From the NCBI GenBank assembly GCA_022561755.1, contig JADFQN010000016.1, forward strand, positions 1 through 32,109: 32,109 nucleotides of DNA, in the 5' to 3' direction. Under the pieces are notes generated by a model. It was not told where the DNA came from. It saw nothing but the letters and a program-made list of their open reading frames with translations, and searched no databases. A program made the translations under genes and the position numbers. Position 1 is the first letter of the stretch. Every line of letters begins with the position of its first letter. Of the stretch, positions 4,161-29,180 are shown piece by piece. This DNA is from Bacteroidota bacterium. Lineage in GTDB: Bacteria > Bacteroidota > Rhodothermia > Rhodothermales > Rubricoccaceae.

Positions 4161-4250
4161 GTACAACGTCAGCAATCACCGGGCCGCGACGAGTGATTGT
4201 CCATTTGGAAACGCCCGGCTTCGCGGCTCCGGTGCATTGCATTGTTATGC
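4161..4250 (-). repeat. attC site of the TIR cassette (last in array)
   Basis: Read on the - strand it starts with GCATAAC and ends with GTTGTAC. Inside, GCAATGCACCGGAGCCGCGA pairs with TCGCGGCCCGGTGATTGC, leaving one unpaired G and one unpaired A on the first arm. Extrahelical bases on one arm are the hallmark that lets the integrase choose the bottom strand. Length 90 bases. Confidence 0.85.
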
Positions 4251-4546
4251 CCCGCTTCCAGCAGCGAAGCAGGGATTCGGATGACTGGCGTCAGTGTGAG
4301 TCGAGCAATTAGCAATTCAAGCATTACCCAAGGTGAACGATACACCATCCGTGAGTCAATTATAACGAGTAAGTGGCAGCGGATCAGTTGCCAGAAAATG
4401 CGAAGTTGCGGATGCCATCTAGACGAAGGTGACAAATGGTCAACAAAGACATTGCCAAACAGAGAAAGATATGAATTGGCGAACGCTAGTTGATCGCCGT
4501 CCACACCCTGATCGCGAAAGGTATACGAAACGAATATTCGCGTCAT
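4169..4546 (-). CDS. TIR-like domain protein, integron cassette gene
   Basis: A 125-residue cytosolic protein. It begins with a TIR-type first strand, RIFVSYTFRD, followed by a second strand NVFVDHL. Later comes LLVIIDSRMVYRSPWVMLEL, in which the W..xE pattern places a glutamate (about residue 77) where the catalytic NADase Glu of TIR domains lies. I infer a TIR/SEFIR-like fold; it is shorter than typical TIR proteins. Its ATG overlaps the stop of the upstream membrane-protein gene (ATGA), so the two are probably translated together. The frame runs through the attC core, so roughly the last 25 residues, after EAGHN, are encoded by the recombination site. Bacterial TIR proteins often serve in anti-phage defence, which is the leading guess here. 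Confidence 0.65.
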   Translation of the reverse strand: MTRIFVSYTFRDQGVDGDQLAFANSYLSLFGNVFVDHLSPSSRWHPQLRIFWQLIRCHLLVIIDSRMVYRSPWVMLELLIARLTLTPVIRIPASLLEAGHNNAMHRSREAGRFQMDNHSSRPGDC

Positions 4547-5022
4547 CCGATCACCCCAGCGGCAAAACACGCACAAAGCAGAATGTCAAGGACGATCAAA
4601 AACAGGTAGAGCCACATTGAATGATTGAAAAATGTATCGAACAGGCGGTGCCCTACAGGTCTTTCCGTTCGAGTATCTGAGATCACTTCGGAATTCGGTC
4701 CACGGAGAACACTGTCAGCGTGCCGCTTGTGTATCCGATCACGCACACCGTCCATAATTCCTCGAAGCTTGACTTGGTAGTAGTAGCCAACGGAATCGAG
4801 GAACCAGAAGGAAACGGTGATTACGGCGGCCGCGACAAAGATAGATTGGTCCAGTTTATCGCTCGTGAACGTTGCGATTACGCCAACGACGCCAACGAGC
4901 ACGGTCAGGCACACCTGCTTGGTGCGGAAACAAAACGTGCCAATTTGCAGAACGACCGCATGCAGTTGATCGAGAAGACTCCAATCAAGGTCGTCTTCAA
5001 CGGTGCGTTCGTAGTCGGCCAT
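4543..5022 (-). CDS. Three-helix membrane protein paired with the TIR-like gene
   Basis: A 159-residue protein, not named by me. A charged N-terminal segment (ERTVEDDLDWSLLDQLH) precedes two membrane segments, about 37-53 (VCLTVLVGVVGVIATF) and 60-79 (IFVAAAVITVSFWFLDSVGY). A basic cytosolic stretch follows (YYQVKLRGIMDGVRDRIHKR), then a C-terminal helix about 136-157 (WLYLFLIVLDILLCACFAAG). It starts 16 bases inside the cassette after the GTTATGC core and overlaps the TIR-like gene by four bases. A two-gene cassette with a membrane partner and a TIR-like protein suggests a sensor/effector or toxin-type module. This function is inference only. Confidence 0.75.
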   Translation of the reverse strand: MADYERTVEDDLDWSLLDQLHAVVLQIGTFCFRTKQVCLTVLVGVVGVIATFTSDKLDQSIFVAAAVITVSFWFLDSVGYYYQVKLRGIMDGVRDRIHKRHADSVLRGPNSEVISDTRTERPVGHRLFDTFFNHSMWLYLFLIVLDILLCACFAAGVIG

Positions 5023-5037
5023 AGATGTTCTTCAGGG

Positions 5038-5107
5038 GCATAACGGGGTCGCGGTTAAGCGTCACTTCCCAGATGGGAAGGTGTACGGCTTCAACCGCTG
5101 GTTATGA
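5038..5107 (-). repeat. attC of the distal ORF-less cassette
   Basis: On the - strand it runs from TCATAAC to GTTATGC over 70 bases. GCGGTTGAAGCCGT pairs with ACGCTTAACCGC, leaving an unpaired G and C on one arm, and the tip is the small hairpin TTCCCATCTGGGAA. It is the same site as at 7387-7456 apart from the core variant. Confidence 0.85.
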
Positions 5108-5271
5108 GTCGATTGCGCGAGCAGTGCAGAAAGAGATCCGGCGGCCGGCTGGATGGGCTTGCCTTCAGATCGTGCTTGCGTACTACCGCGCGACTACAAG
5201 ATACAGGAGAGATCCTGAGCCGGAACGCCTAGCCGCGATCCCGTTATGAGCGAGCGAAGCGAGCTCATAAC
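5038..5271 (-). repeat. ORF-less integron cassette, copy A
   Basis: A 234-base cassette bounded by TCATAAC (5265-5271 on +) and GCATAAC (5038-5044 on +), nearly identical to 7387-7620. I see no convincing reading frame shared by the two copies. The attI-proximal end is a palindrome around GAGCGAGCGAAGCGAGCTC, and its ends are mutually inverted (GGTCGCGGTTAAGCG against its reverse complement). It lies directly upstream of the TIR pair, so it may supply a promoter or a non-coding RNA; that is inference. Confidence 0.8.
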
Positions 5272-5359
5272 GTCTCGTCATTCTGCTGCGCGGCCAGCCC
5301 GGACACCAGCGCAGCGTATCCACCAGTTCCTCCGCGTCAGTAGCAATGACTTGTTAGGC
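5265..5359 (-). repeat. attC site of the methyltransferase cassette
   Basis: On the - strand it begins GCCTAAC (a perfect RYYYAAC core) and ends at GTTATGA, 95 bases. GTCATTGCTACTG near one end pairs with CAGCAGAATGAC near the other, with an unpaired G. An inner stem CTGCGC / GCGCAG is also visible. The methyltransferase stop codon lies seven bases upstream of the core. Confidence 0.8.
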
Positions 5360-5365
5360 GGCGCC

Positions 5366-6127
5366 TCACCTAGAGGGTTTTCGAGCGATCGCCAAGAAAG
5401 TGGTCCCGCCGGGTTCAACCGCTTTGCCGTCCTGACCAGCGATCCGCTCGATTTCGAACCCGGCGCGACAGAGCATTTCCGTGAGTTGTTGGACAGTATA
5501 CCACCGGACGATCCAATCGCGTTGCACGGTGTCCACAACGACCCTGCTCTCCTCTATTTCAAAGACTAGCTGCGTGGTAACAATCTGTTTTTTAATGTCT
5601 TCTGTTTGGGACAACGATTGTATGGAGATCACTGTTTCATCCGCACGTGTTGCAGTTCTCTTCGACGAGGGCTGATCGACGAGTTCTGGCCGGAAAACCG
5701 GAACTAGGAAACGCCCTCCAGGTTCAAGATGCCTAAAAACAGCATCGATAGCCTGCTGCGCATCATCGAGCTGATCAATCAGGCAGAATGACTCACCAGC
5801 TAGGTAGCAACTTCTATAACGGTAGGGTACGTCGAGGTCCTGCATGCGCTGACAGAAGACGATCGGCCGCAGACCTCGGACACGTGCTTTTTCTAGACAA
5901 AGGTCGAGCATGTCTTGAGAGGAATCCAGTCCGTGTACTTCCAGTCCGCTCTCAATGAGATCGAGCATCGGATGACCCGCTCCGCAAGCAAGCTCAAGTG
6001 CCGGGGTTCCGTATTTCGACACGAATCTCTTTGACGTTTCTGGATCCGGGAGGTCGGCAACGAGCGCCTCATACAGGTGTGCTATCGACCCGCTGTAGAA
6101 CTGACTTGGATCAACAATGTCTGCCAT
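5366..6127 (-). CDS. Class I SAM-dependent methyltransferase, cassette gene
   Basis: A 253-residue cytosolic enzyme. Motif I, the SAM-binding loop, reads ALELACGAGHPML (about 48-60); the acidic end of strand 2 is VHGLDSSQDML. A later post-I segment (YLAGESFCLIDQLDD) and the FRHLEPGGRFLVPVF strand complete a Rossmann methyltransferase, with IVRWYTVQQLTEMLCRAGFE in the usual place before the last strands. The fold is clear but the substrate is not: small-molecule O- or N-methylation is as likely as anything. The start at 6127 lies about 70 bases after the preceding attC core, and the stop lies next to its own attC, so it fills one cassette. Its composition is moderately GC-rich, unlike the two cassettes upstream. 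Confidence 0.9.
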   Translation of the reverse strand: MADIVDPSQFYSGSIAHLYEALVADLPDPETSKRFVSKYGTPALELACGAGHPMLDLIESGLEVHGLDSSQDMLDLCLEKARVRGLRPIVFCQRMQDLDVPYRYRSCYLAGESFCLIDQLDDAQQAIDAVFRHLEPGGRFLVPVFRPELVDQPSSKRTATRADETVISIQSLSQTEDIKKQIVTTQLVFEIEESRVVVDTVQRDWIVRWYTVQQLTEMLCRAGFEIERIAGQDGKAVEPGGTTFLAIARKPSR

Positions 6128-6197
6128 ATTCTGATGTCCGCGTGAAGCCGAATGACGAGACAGACCCTACCGAGCCCCGGGTGGTCTTGCCAGCGCT

Positions 6198-6254
6198 GCC
6201 CAACACTGAGGTCACCGGCGCGCGAAGCGGGGCCGGTGCACCGTTTTGTTATGC
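6198..6254 (-). repeat. attC site, 57 bases, of the membrane-protein cassette
   Basis: On the - strand it runs GCATAAC to GTTGGGC (a perfect GTTRRRY). GGTGCACCGGC pairs with GCCGGTGACC leaving one unpaired G, with a short loop around CGCTTCGCG. At 57 bases it is near the lower size limit known for attC sites. The stop codon of the gene overlaps its first core. Confidence 0.85.
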
Positions 6255-6665
6255 ATTGTGCTCCGTGCCTCTGCCGTAAATTTTACCAATGAGAAGGCCA
6301 TAAGCACCAAATTGTATTAATAGGTAAAAACTCTCCATGACAACAAATGAAAGTGAATTATCAACTACCTGCTTGGCAACAAAAGCCAAAACGTGCGATG
6401 ACCAGAAGAATATGCCTATAATTAGAGCGTACTTTAGGCCCCTGATAATACCTTGGCCCTTAAATTTTACATAAGAGTATAAGAGCGACAAAATATAGCC
6501 CTGGATAATAATAGTTAACAAGCCAAGAGCGAAATTTGGTTCACCTTCAAAATAACCAAAAGAATGATACTTGTCTTCGAACAGTACTACATGCCAAATT
6601 ACTGCTAATGGAAATGCAACCAGTGTATAGGCGAGCGTTCCAAGCAGTGTGGATTTATGAATCAT
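6249..6665 (-). CDS. Small multi-helix membrane protein, cassette gene
   Basis: A 138-residue, AT-rich gene of unknown function. ATG at 6665 is chosen because AGGAG lies eight bases upstream; an in-frame extension to 6767 would run through the preceding attC. Four hydrophobic segments are visible: LLGTLAYTLVAFPLAVIW, FALGLLTIIIQGYILSLLY, YALIIGIFFWSSHVLAFVA and a C-terminal FYLLIQFGAYGLLIGKIYG. The pattern of four helices with short loops resembles small integral proteins of unknown role often found in integron cassettes. Its low GC content contrasts sharply with the flanking chromosome and shows foreign origin. The TAA stop is part of the attC core. Confidence 0.85.
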   Translation of the reverse strand: MIHKSTLLGTLAYTLVAFPLAVIWHVVLFEDKYHSFGYFEGEPNFALGLLTIIIQGYILSLLYSYVKFKGQGIIRGLKYALIIGIFFWSSHVLAFVAKQVVDNSLSFVVMESFYLLIQFGAYGLLIGKIYGRGTEHNA

Positions 6666-6682
6666 TCTTATTCTCCTGTAGT

Positions 6683-6801
6683 GCATAACGATTGAGTTCA
6701 GCGGTAATGTGAATTTTGGTTCTTTTGTGAAAATAATGTAGCGAAGCGGAATGCACAAAAGAACCAAAATTCACATTGTCCACTGAAACGATTTGTTATA
6801 C
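6683..6801 (-). repeat. attC site, 119 bases, of the acetyltransferase cassette
   Basis: On the - strand it runs from GTATAAC (holding the gene's TAA stop) to GTTATGC. The arms at 6706-6729 and 6754-6777 are perfect 24-base inverted repeats, with a 24-base loop. The outer part pairs imperfectly (TCGTTTCAGTGGAC against CCGCTGAACTCAA). The length and form resemble the long attC sites of chromosomal integrons. Confidence 0.9.
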
Positions 6802-7359
6802 GGCATTTGCTGACCAACTATGCCTGTCTATTTTGTAGAGCACATGCTCCCGTAATGGGCTGCCCTCAGGAATCATCGGATGCTCAAAATTGCTGTTAGC
6901 ATTACTCATACCCAATCTTTCCATAACCGCCCGGGACATTCTATTTGATACTGACGTAAATGAGTACACTTCAGATAAATTTAGCTTCTGGAATGCTACT
7001 ACCAATGAGGCTTTCGCTGCTTCACTCGCATACCCACAACCCCAATGCTCCTTACCGAGTCTCCAACCAATTTCAACGCAAGGTGTAACTGTTAAATCAT
7101 AAGTTGGCTCATGTAGCCCAACAAAACCAACAAATTGATTGTCCTCGATCTTTTCTACAGCCCAGAACCCCCATCCTCTATTAGTAATTAATGTCTCGAA
7201 TTTGTGCGCCATAACATTACTTTCTTCTTCGCTCATAACACTAGGGTAATATTCCATTACATCAGGATCTGCATTTATTTTTGCAAAACTTGGATAGTCC
7301 TCCTTTTTCCATTGCCTTAACTTAAGGCGTTCCGTTTCCATTTCAATAATATTAGCCAT
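6796..7359 (-). CDS. GNAT-family N-acetyltransferase (RimJ/RimL-like), cassette gene
   Basis: A 187-residue acetyl-CoA-dependent N-acetyltransferase. It opens with METERLKLRQWKKEDYPSF, the usual RimJ/RimL start. It has the acyl-acceptor strand VGFVGLHEP, and the acetyl-CoA loop in RLGKEHWGCGYASEA, followed by SNRMSRAVMERLGM, a standard GNAT helix. The substrate may be a protein N-terminus or a small amine, possibly an antibiotic, but nothing in the sequence decides this. ATG at 7359 is preferred to TTG at 7365. The gene is AT-rich, and its TAA stop is contained in the attC core, which identifies it as a gene cassette. It is the first gene-bearing cassette after attI. Confidence 0.92.
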   Translation of the reverse strand: MANIIEMETERLKLRQWKKEDYPSFAKINADPDVMEYYPSVMSEEESNVMAHKFETLITNRGWGFWAVEKIEDNQFVGFVGLHEPTYDLTVTPCVEIGWRLGKEHWGCGYASEAAKASLVVAFQKLNLSEVYSFTSVSNRMSRAVMERLGMSNANSNFEHPMIPEGSPLREHVLYKIDRHSWSANAV

Positions 7360-7386
7360 CAGCAATCTAAATTATTTTCCTATGAC

Positions 7387-7456
7387 GTATAACGGGGTCG
7401 CGGTTAAGCGTCACTTCCCAGATGGGAAGGTGTACGGCTTCAACCGCTGGTTATGA
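7387..7456 (-). repeat. attC of the proximal ORF-less cassette
   Basis: It has the same 70-base structure as 5038-5107, ending here in GTTATAC on the - strand. The unpaired G and C on one arm are conserved in both copies. Confidence 0.85.
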
Positions 7457-7620
7457 GTCGATTGCGCGAGCAACGCAGAAAGAGATCCGGCGGTCGGTTG
7501 GATGGGCTTGCCTTCAGATCGTGCTTGCGTACTACCTCGCGACTACAAGATACAGGAGAGATCCTGAGCCGGAACGCTTAACCGCGACCCCGCTATGAGC
7601 GAGCGAAGCGAGTTCATAAC
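7387..7620 (-). repeat. ORF-less integron cassette, copy B (first cassette)
   Basis: A 234-base near-duplicate of 5038-5271 with scattered substitutions, placed directly at attI. Its attI-proximal end (CGCTTAACCGCGACCCC then the GAGCGAGCGAAGCGAG palindrome) recurs at about 18264-18324, again fused to an attI-like site. No shared open frame is visible in the copies. Confidence 0.8.
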
Positions 7621-7708
7621 TACTGTTTATACGTCACTGTGACGCATAACACGCAAGAACGGCAAAGGGTAAAAGGTATGTTCACAGCCGTGTAAGGCAT
7701 GGGGCAGA
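7614..7708 (-). other. attI-like recombination site / integron leader
   Basis: The first cassette joins at the core TCATAAC (7614-7620, + strand). The leader then reads TACTGTTTATACGTCACTG and contains a second core-like GCATAAC at 7643-7649. A diverged copy of this leader, still starting core-TACTG, occurs at 14693, 15224 and 18318. It lies between the array and the 5' end of the integrase relic, which is the expected place for attI. A cassette promoter is expected nearby, but I cannot place it. Confidence 0.7.
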
Positions 7709-8013
7709 GTGTTATCAATACCTTGGGCGGATAATGTGCCTGTCGCGTCTGCGAACGTTTTGTTTCACGCAAAGATACTTAACGTGCTCGACAACGTCAG
7801 ACAGAACAAGCCGCCGAAGCTCCTCGGACGAGTTCGCAATGCCTGCCGGACACGTCATCTTAGCCTCCGTACCGAGAAGGCGTACGTAAACTGGGTGCGG
7901 CGGTATGTCCGCTATCAGACGTTCACCCAAGCGAGTTGGACGACACGCATGTACAAGCATTTCTTTCGTATCTCGTCGTAGAGCAGCATGTTGCGGTTTT
8001 CACGCAGAATCAG
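7709..8013 (+). pseudogene. intI: Integron integrase (intI) N-terminal relic, frameshifted
   Basis: The first frame reads KLLGRVRNACRTRHLSLRTE followed by KAYVNWVRRYVRY, the SAM-like N-terminal domain of integron tyrosine integrases. Near 7922 the match moves to another frame and continues HPSELDDTHVQAFLSYLVVE then QHVAVFTQNQA, exactly the next part of the family (an alpha-helical core-binding domain). A one-base indel therefore separates the two halves. The match ends at TQNQA, where the sequence runs into the stop codon of the convergent peroxiredoxin gene. The catalytic domain (R, H, R, Y residues) and the integron-specific insert are missing, so the protein cannot recombine. The true start is uncertain; 7709 is the open-frame limit. 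Confidence 0.85.
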
Positions 8014-8690
8014 GCGTACACCTCGCTCTCAACCACGGGCGCCTTCGTCTTCCGAATGTAAGGCATTACGGATTCCCAGCCGTCGGGGAAGAGCTTCCGC
8101 GCTTCTTCATCCGACACCGACGGGAGTATGAATGCATCGTCACCGCTCTGCCAGTCTGCCGGGGTAGCAAGCTTGTGTCTTGCTGTCAGCTGCAACGAAT
8201 CCAGCACACGCAGGATTTCGGCGAAGTTGCGTCCGGTGCTCATCGGATAAGTAAGAATCAGCTTGATCGTCTTGTCAGGACCAATGATAAAGACCGACCG
8301 GACAGTTGCGTTGGTGGCCGCCGTCCGTCCTTCGGAAGTGCCTTCGGTATCGGCCGGCAGCATGGAATAGAGCTTGGCGACGGATAGGTCGGTATCGCCG
8401 ATCATCGGATAGTTAGGGGCTGTACCCGTGACCTCTTCAATGTCTTTTGCCCACCTTTCATGATCGTCTACGGGGTCAACGCTCAGACCAATAATCTTTG
8501 TATTCCGTTTGTCAAATTCCGGCTTGAGCGTTGCCATGGTCCCAAGCTCCGTGGTGCAGACCGGCGTGAAGTCCTTCGGATGAGAAAACAGCACGGCCCA
8601 ACCATCTCCGATCCATTCGTGAAAACGAATTGTGCCATGGGTCGTTTCGGCCTGGAAATCAGGCGCAGTATCATTGATCGCTAGAGACAT
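8010..8690 (-). CDS. 1-Cys peroxiredoxin (Prx6 family)
   Basis: A 226-residue cytosolic thiol peroxidase that reduces hydrogen peroxide and alkyl hydroperoxides. The peroxidatic site is HPKDFTPVCTTELG with Cys45. The remaining text follows the Prx6 family closely: IGLSVDPVDDHERWAKDIEE, NYPMIGD, RSVFIIGPDKTIKLILTYP, and the C-terminal ATPADWQSGDD region typical of the longer Prx6 class. No resolving cysteine is visible. ATG at 8690 is chosen because the family starts with M-x-L-x-I-N/G-D-x-APDF; an extension to 8759 adds an unrelated stretch. The stop codon lies within the end of the integrase relic, showing that a recombination joined the two. Confidence 0.95.
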   Translation of the reverse strand: MSLAINDTAPDFQAETTHGTIRFHEWIGDGWAVLFSHPKDFTPVCTTELGTMATLKPEFDKRNTKIIGLSVDPVDDHERWAKDIEEVTGTAPNYPMIGDTDLSVAKLYSMLPADTEGTSEGRTAATNATVRSVFIIGPDKTIKLILTYPMSTGRNFAEILRVLDSLQLTARHKLATPADWQSGDDAFILPSVSDEEARKLFPDGWESVMPYIRKTKAPVVESEVYA

Positions 8691-14692: not shown

Positions 14693-14780
14693 CCCCAACT
14701 ACTGATTATCCCTCGAGGTGAGGTACAACGCACAGAATCGGCAGGTCGCAACGTACTGTTCACCGCTGCGCTCGGATCTG
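14693..14780 (-). other. attI-like leader copy 2
   Basis: Starts with CCCCAAC then TACTGATTATCCCTCGAGG and continues AGAATCGGCAGGTCGCAAC, closely matching 18318-18400 and less closely the integron attI at 7614. It ends at or next to the stop codon of the 2H phosphoesterase gene (14793). Confidence 0.6.
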
Positions 14781-14792
14781 GTCCGCGTGATG

Positions 14793-15215
14793 TCAGGCAT
14801 TCTTGCAATTCCCGATTGTGAGATGCAAGGGCCATTTTGGTTCGCGAGGAAGCCCGAGCTGTTCGCGATAGTCGAGAGCCTCGGGACAGTCCACTGGCAG
14901 GAAGATGTAGCCGTCCGTTTCCTGCGGCGCCTGTTCATACTCCAGTGTGACCTCCCGGCCCTCTCGGTCGTTCCAATGTTCGAGGTTGGGCGGAGTTTCG
15001 TTTTGGATGATTGATACGTGTGCGCCCCAAAGCGGCTCGCTGATCTTTACGCCGCCCGGGGCCTCTAGCTTGCAAAGATGGCGAAGGTACCGGCCTAAAT
15101 CGCGATCGCACTGAACAATGAGCCACCAGTCCGTTGTGGCCCCATCTCGTCGCACTCGGTTTCCGCCGCTCCCAAGGGCGGGCGCGAACTTGTATGTTCC
15201 AGTGATTTGGGGCAT
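14793..15215 (-). CDS. 2H phosphoesterase-like protein (LigT/CPDase fold)
   Basis: A 140-residue cytosolic protein. The two catalytic H-x-(S/T) motifs of the 2H phosphoesterase superfamily are visible: GAHVSII (His66, Ser68) and LHLTIGN (His131, Thr133). The spacing and small size fit the compact bacterial and phage members that hydrolyse or form 2',3'-cyclic phosphates on RNA or nucleotides. The actual substrate is unknown. The gene behaves like an integron cassette: a GTTAGGC core lies nine bases before the ATG on the same strand, directly joined to an attI-like leader (15224-15302). Another leader copy abuts the stop codon. No clear attC stem is seen after the gene. The frame could extend upstream to 15308 but only through the leader. 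Confidence 0.75.
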   Translation of the reverse strand: MPQITGTYKFAPALGSGGNRVRRDGATTDWWLIVQCDRDLGRYLRHLCKLEAPGGVKISEPLWGAHVSIIQNETPPNLEHWNDREGREVTLEYEQAPQETDGYIFLPVDCPEALDYREQLGLPREPKWPLHLTIGNCKNA

Positions 15216-15223
15216 GTCGGAAT

Positions 15224-15302
15224 GCCTAACTACTGTTTTTTCGTCGAGGTGACGAATGGTGTGCAGCATCGGCAGTGCGCCTCCCCAATATATCCGCTGC
15301 CA
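15224..15302 (-). other. attI-like leader copy 3 joined to the 2H phosphoesterase gene
   Basis: GCCTAAC (15224-15230) is a perfect core, followed by TACTGTTTTTTCGTCGAGG and a shortened leader ending CCTCCCCAATATATCCGCTG. The end segment also closes copy 4 at 18449. On the - strand the core GTTAGGC opens the cassette-like 2H gene. Confidence 0.65.
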
Positions 15303-18254: not shown

Positions 18255-18324
18255 GACGCGCCAGATCCTGAGCCGGAACGCTTAACCGCGACTCCGTTAT
18301 GAGCGAGCGAAGCGAGCTCATAGC
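18255..18324 (-). repeat. Truncated ORF-less cassette fragment outside the array
   Basis: AGATCCTGAGCCGGAACGCT, TAACCGCGACTCCG and the GAGCGAGCGAAGCGAGCTCA palindrome match the attI-proximal ~60 bases of the two cassettes at 5038-5271 and 7387-7620. It is joined at TCATAGC to an attI-like leader, as copy B is at 7614. The rest of the cassette, with its attC, is missing. Confidence 0.8.
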
Positions 18325-18470
18325 TACTGATTATCCGTCGAGGTGACGTATAAAGCGCAGAATCGGCAGGTCGCAATGTATTTGTTCACTGCTGTCCTGG
18401 TACGGCGCGTTATCAAAACTTTGTATGGATAAGACGCTTGTATGAGCCTCCCCAATATATCCGCTGCGAT
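18318..18470 (-). other. attI-like leader copy 4
   Basis: TCATAGC followed by TACTGATTATCCGTCGAGG, GACGTATAAAGCGCAGAATC, then TTGTTCACTGCTGTCC and GCGTTATCAAAAC. It aligns along about 120 bases with the leader before the integrase relic (7614-7735), ending in CCTCCCCAATATATCCGCTG as copy 3 does. No integrase sequence follows; the ferredoxin gene does. Confidence 0.7.
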
Positions 18471-18507
18471 GACGACTGCGACCCTGGACGTCCAGCGAGC
18501 CTCGCGC

Positions 18508-19286: not shown

Positions 19287-19455
19287 CTAGGGCCTGTTCA
19301 CAGTGAGCGTGTTGAGATTGGTTCGAGGACAGTCTGAGGCCGATTCAAGGCGCGGGAGGAGGTCGGGGCAATAGTCCCGAACGACGAGTGCAACGCCGAA
19401 ACGGTCCAGAATGGGCCGAAACGATCCTTCATGATTTACTGTGAACAGGTCCTAG
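19287..19455. mobile_element. MITE-like element, family 1, copy 1, with CTAG target duplication
   Basis: The element (19291-19451, 161 bases) has terminal inverted repeats GGCCTGTTCACAGT / ACTGTGAACAGGTC and is flanked by CTAG on both sides. The inside matches the reverse complement of 29017-29176, e.g. GGTTCGAGGACA, AGGTCGGGGCAATAG and CGACGAGTG. No coding capacity. The 4-base YTAG duplication is the habit of IS5-type transposases. Confidence 0.85.
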
Positions 19456-19574
19456 AACTGCAGTTCTATCCCCGTCTGCCACTCGGCGAACGTGCGCTCT
19501 ACCGCCTCGTTGGTCGGTTCGGACTTTCCTTCTTCTCTGGCCTTTGCCACTTCGCCGCGGGTCCTCGTTTTCAT
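19452..19574 (-). CDS. Possible 40-residue hypothetical protein ending in the MITE target site
   Basis: The frame begins MKTRTRGEVAKAREEGKSE and ends ERTFAEWQTGIELQF, with GGAG nine bases before the ATG. It is charged and hydrophilic, with a helical look. Its TAG stop is part of the CTAG duplicated by the MITE. No family is recognised; it may be a small regulatory or metal-operon peptide, or a chance frame. Confidence 0.35.
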   Translation of the reverse strand: MKTRTRGEVAKAREEGKSEPTNEAVERTFAEWQTGIELQF

Positions 19575-28972: not shown

Positions 28973-29012
28973 ACCGGCGATACCATTCGCGCAATTGAAT
29001 TCGTTCCTACTT

Positions 29013-29180
29013 TTAGGGCCTGTTAACATTTGATCGCGGCGGGCCGTTTCGGGCCATTCTGGTCCGTCTCGGTGTTACACTCGTCGTCCGGGGCTATTGC
29101 CCCGACCTTCTCGCGCGCCTTGATACGGCCTCAGATTGTCCTCGAACCGACCTCACGTGCTAAGTGTTAACAGGCCTTAG
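29013..29180. mobile_element. MITE-like element, family 1, copy 2, with TTAG target duplication
   Basis: The element (29017-29176, 160 bases) has inverted repeats GGCCTGTTAACA / TGTTAACAGGCC and a TTAG on each side. Its interior is an inverted, roughly 80%-similar (by eye) copy of 19291-19451. It lies between the UbiA gene and the sigma factor gene, possibly affecting the latter's promoter. Confidence 0.85.

Follow-up and report, generated by a model that had tools for sequence, protein, structure and literature searches.

What is a short segment without an evident gene doing twice in an array of integron cassettes, once directly behind an attI-like leader? The locus lies on a contig of a Bacteroidota bacterium of the Rubricoccaceae (GCA_022561755.1, contig JADFQN010000016.1), of which positions 1-32,109 were analyzed; this whole stretch is referred to here as the window. 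Two near-identical segments were found by both repeat search and self-comparison, and the duplication described in an earlier note on this DNA therefore stands. Its length of 234 bases does not, as each copy measures 227 bp between its crossovers (copy B, 7393-7619; copy A, 5044-5270; both on the reverse strand). The two copies align with 10 substitutions and no indels, and neither contains an ORF of more than 210 bp (70 amino acids), the longest ATG-initiated ORF in both being 58 amino acids. The segment is probably an integron cassette without a gene, in which the attC recombination site is the part that does the work; most likely it is a mobile passenger, left over from a cassette whose gene was lost or never existed. 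It is a known kind of element, since gene-less integron cassettes are already described in other bacteria.

All cassettes of the array lie on the reverse strand. Reading leftward from the attI-like leader at 7620, copy B, which abuts the leader, is followed by a GNAT acetyltransferase cassette with its own attC (6689-7392, PF13302), a membrane-protein cassette with a short attC (6204-6688, boundaries read from the sequence), a methyltransferase cassette with its own attC (5271-6203), copy A and a cassette with two short ORFs and an attC (4167-5043, the left boundary read from the sequence and uncertain). The attC of the methyltransferase cassette ends where copy A begins, a boundary likewise read from the sequence, and pairing of its R and L boxes is absent from its MFE fold. 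Copy A is immediately before the 4169-5022 gene pair of the last cassette, in which ORF 4543-5022 is a membrane protein with a weak PADLOC match (PDC-M50A, E 1.7e-4). The other ORF, 4169-4576, had been called a TIR gene; this label was not borne out, as no TIR match was obtained in Pfam, PADLOC or PDB sequences, in searches that very divergent members could escape. The placement of the copies ahead of genes, which had been offered as a sign of function, is uninformative because any cassette that is not the last in its array has it. Elsewhere in the window, a GC-rich intergenic repeat of the CTCACCCGCCCGCTGGCGA type occurs near several genes (8856, 12274, 15343 and 16142), and a 145-base inverted repeat (19313-19457 and 29011-29155), 82% complementary, has its arms 9.5 kb apart.

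Copies A and B are each bounded by attI/attC crossovers of the form G^TTRRRY, with G^TT at both ends; the third R is often a T, as in Vibrio. The first bases of the full copies, TTATGA, are constant, whereas those past the 3' G depend on which cassette comes next (GTTATGC, GTTATAC and GTTGGGC), which is the pattern predicted by cassette recombination. The attC comprises the 3' 71 bases and lies on the reverse strand at 7387-7457 in copy B and 5038-5108 in copy A. In order, it contains R'' CTCATAAC, L'' GCGGTT(G)AAGC, in which a single base is extrahelical, then a hairpin, L' GCTTAACCGC and finally R', which is GTTATAC in copy B. The attC of copy A is the same save for the R' end, which comes from the next cassette; R' is thus either GTTATAC or GTTATGC. 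In the predicted fold of the bottom strand (z -3.6), the R and L boxes are both paired around an open central spacer, whereas in the top-strand fold the R box is unpaired. Such asymmetry between the strands is usual for attC sites.

The organism's genome was searched as a draft of 198 contigs (3.06 Mb, 88% complete). This search revealed five copies or pieces in total, with E-values of 1e-25 to 1e-104 that rule out chance similarity. The truncated third copy described previously was confirmed: 18263-18338 matches at 92%, about 60 bases of it (18263-18322, reverse strand) being the 5' end of the cassette and the remainder belonging to the attI-like leader to which the piece is joined (18323-18480, reverse strand, identified by leader homology). 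A further full copy with an 88% match lies near another attI-like leader on a second contig (C99:11619-11866) and carries a 22-base tandem duplication and a 4-base deletion. On a third contig, a 108-base 3' part with a 98% match (C130:42844-42951) is the attC end fused behind a different ORF; there, a gene cassette uses the attC of the gene-less one. Between copy B and the C99 copy there are 3 internal substitutions and the two indels; copy B thus has fewer substitutions relative to the C99 copy than to copy A of its own array, which suggests movement between platforms. A matching variant (GGAGT/ACTCC) is found in both the 5' piece at 18263 and the 3' piece on C130, and these pieces may be the two halves of one variant cassette.

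The differences among copies are unevenly placed. None of the 10 substitutions between A and B falls in the last ~84 of the 227 bases; this part is also unchanged in the C99 copy and shows one difference in the C130 piece, and outside it the copies show substitutions, one duplication and one deletion. The chance of finding no A/B substitution in those bases is (143/227)^10, or about 0.01. This is a modest test, as recent, rapid copying would likewise leave the attC with few differences. Taken with the crossover boundaries, the canonical attC fold and the occurrence of copies at attI- and attC-type junctions in at least two arrays, this invariance of the attC end leads us to the gene-less cassette reading. 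In this respect the earlier note was correct in describing an ORF-less integron cassette that is duplicated and linked to attI-like sites. Its proposal of a functional role rather than chance holds for recombination, given an attC with a canonical fold that is invariant in the full copies, but not for a promoter or small RNA. An integron integrase would have excised the cassette as a circle by way of the folded attC bottom strand, and reinsertion of the circle at attI-like sites would have produced the copies. One end would have come to serve a gene cassette as its attC (C130), and another copy would have been broken (18263).

Outside its own genome the cassette appears isolated. No relatives were found at the family level, in PLSDB plasmids or in IMG/VR (22-mer search), nor in 114 genomes of the order, 245 of the class or 395 of the phylum, the phylum and class searches having scored few candidates per genome, so that weak relatives could be missed. 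Matches to 18- and 19-mer patterns in two viral contigs of IMG/VR and eight GTDB genomes were only 18-26 bases long and were taken as chance. Absence from other arrays, which the earlier note had named as counting against its proposal, was thus found only in part: the cassette is present in the C99 array of its own genome and absent from every other genome searched. Evolutionary constraint is poorly measurable because there is no relative in the other genomes searched.

The gene-less cassettes of Vibrio superintegrons (PMC11014356) and of oral Treponema (PMC6557892) are the nearest comparison. They are likewise bounded by G^TT, carry an attC, have no ORF over 70 amino acids and, like the one here, lie between gene cassettes. 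The present cassette is shorter than those of Vibrio, at 227 bp compared to 491-666 bp, and so is its attC, at 71 compared to 101-127 (PMC11014356). It differs from both groups in having an inverted attC arm at its 5' end, in being GC-rich and in the lack of a promoter-like match; it also belongs to a different lineage, and an intact integrase was not found in its own assembly. The array resembles a CALIN or degenerate integron, an attC cluster without integrase, in that it is an attC array with an intI remnant only, but differs in that a clear attI-like leader is kept here and several leaders are present in the genome.

The strongest rival explanation is that the cassette is a promoter driving transcription of the cassettes behind it, namely the GNAT gene for copy B and the 4169-5022 pair for copy A. 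Most of the 29-30 gene-less Vibrio cassettes have sense-strand promoter activity (PMC11014356), as do those of oral Treponema (PMC6557892). Here, however, a promoter scan found no sigma-70-like site in copy A or copy B, and the best sigma-70 and Bacteroidota-type matches on both strands were no better than those of nearly all shuffles. Such a negative scan is weak evidence, since software fails to predict the promoters of these cassettes (PMC11014356). The part that is constant among copies is the attC and not the interior, and copy B immediately follows the leader, a position at which a Pc promoter should already be active. We regard a promoter function as unlikely.

Less likely by far is a small or antisense RNA encoded by the cassette. 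As an RNA, the cassette folds better than shuffles (z -4.9), and antisense-RNA roles for ORF-less cassettes are cited in PMC6557892. The folding signal, however, is present on both DNA strands and is explained by the attC together with the inverted arm, the interior carries indels in C99, and terminator-like matches were not above shuffles. Rfam gave no match in the cassettes; its only matches, all below the family thresholds, fell in the hairpin of the GNAT attC (microRNA-type) and, once, in the attC of the membrane-protein cassette. The earlier suggestion that the cassettes may carry promoters or small RNAs is thus unsupported, with no Rfam match and with promoter-like matches not above shuffles.

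Two other readings have very little in their favor. A non-autonomous, MITE-like transposon would account for near-perfect inverted arms of 20-odd bp around most of the cassette, the lack of an ORF and five copies or pieces in one genome, but the copies are not scattered at random with duplicated targets: the full copies all join their neighbors at integron crossovers, beside either an attI leader or the attC of another cassette, and show no target duplication, and the 5' inverted arm lies about 25 bases within the boundary, so that a transposon is highly improbable. Equally improbable is a 58-residue antisense protein, whose 58-codon ATG-TGA frame is open in both A and B, contrary to the claim that the copies have no reading frame in common, but looks like chance: a comparable ORF arises in 12.6% of shuffles (cut-off 57), A and B differ by 6 amino-acid changes against 2 synonymous ones, the 4-base deletion and 22-base duplication break the frame in C99, and 58 amino acids is under the 70-amino-acid limit that defines gene-less cassettes (PMC11014356).

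The gene-less cassette with its attC, our preferred reading, has one feature of its own at the 5' end. The L'-spacer-R' arm of the attC recurs in inverted form, lacking the extrahelical base, at 7574-7596 (forward strand) in copy B, where it gave a reverse-strand self-match of 96% and fold z-scores of -4.7 and -5.8. This arm sits about 25 bases inside the 5' boundary; beyond it, up to the crossover, is a 29-bp palindrome, GTTATGAGCGAGCGAAGCGAGCTCATAAC, with a GCGAAGC mini-hairpin core, which has perfect ends in copy A (5243-5271, read from the sequence, its structure presumed). When the full length of either strand is folded, the predicted structure has the 5' arm in a long helix with L'-R', and the bottom-strand fold is -54.9 kcal/mol for the whole cassette compared to -30.4 kcal/mol without the 5' 45 bases. 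The arm is not strictly maintained, because copy A has several mismatches there. It probably originated by fold-back copying and, if relevant at all, would act as a competitor of normal attC pairing. A doubtful extension of this idea, which we hold to be slightly less probable even than the promoter, is that the 5' half-attC is a built-in switch that would limit cassette mobility in a network spanning the genome, in which a single integrase would act on at least 11 attI-like leaders. In such a model, a fully single-stranded cassette would have its 5' arm paired with L'-R' and its recombination site hidden, and exposure of the 3' end alone would let the normal attC hairpin form.

The leaders themselves may be more interesting than the cassette. 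The leader of the array (7620-7760, reverse strand) ends at the copy B crossover, where its homology to leaders on other contigs stops. A leader sequence model, built from 7 of the 11, located 11 copies on six contigs, in addition to weaker partial ones: 7615, 14694, 15225 and 18319 in the window, and C29:12083, C99:13295, C167:206, C134:9443 and 13013, and C139:9444 and 12419. A palindrome around CGTCAC-GTGACG is common to them, as is a junction of the type CAGTAG^TTA. Pairwise similarity ends at the crossover in nearly all pairs, as expected of attI sites with different cassettes; the exception, 18319 and 7615, share the same cassette beyond it. These leaders, at least 11, may belong to one genome, although foreign contigs could have been binned in. 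Among 16 related genomes, one of the same genus, the leader model gave no strong match and two weak ones; a genome from the same order has a weak match at G029:C209:32662-32710 (E 8.8e-5). On C134 and C139, a repeated stretch before the leaders (L077 and L076) includes the 3' end of a GNAT-like gene and runs in the same direction as the genes behind.

At 14694-15296 of the window, a leader, a 2H-phosphoesterase-like gene and a second leader occur in attI-ORF-attI order. Read as 15296-14694, this matches the order of the attI-ORF-attI or delta-attI-type cassettes (PMC12901181). The likeness concerns this neighboring feature; the ORF-less cassette ends in an attC, and in contrast to the cassettes of PMC12901181 the leader copies here are spread over several contigs. 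A literature search on multiple or solo attI sites found no reports.

Beside the array leader, 7709-8034 (forward strand) is a truncated and frameshifted intI remnant covering approximately the first 73 of 315 model positions, with a Phage_int_SAM_4 match and TIGR02249 fragments 2-35 and 34-73. Other intI remnants adjoin leaders on C191 and C29. Many related genomes carry a full integrase, but a TIGR02249 profile search of the organism's own 88%-complete assembly found no intact intI, and current mobility is for this reason unproven. The integrase would now persist here as N-terminal remnants, and its activity may still be supplied by an unassembled gene.

Discussion of gene-less cassettes usually centers on promoter or regulatory-RNA roles. 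The sequence pattern observed here is the one expected if nothing but the recombination site is kept, in an element that moves from array to array within one genome and whose attC comes to serve a gene cassette. Should the inverted arm affect recombination, it would be a natural example of mobility control through competing folds. The many attI-like leaders would make this genome a case in which to test integrons having several insertion platforms.
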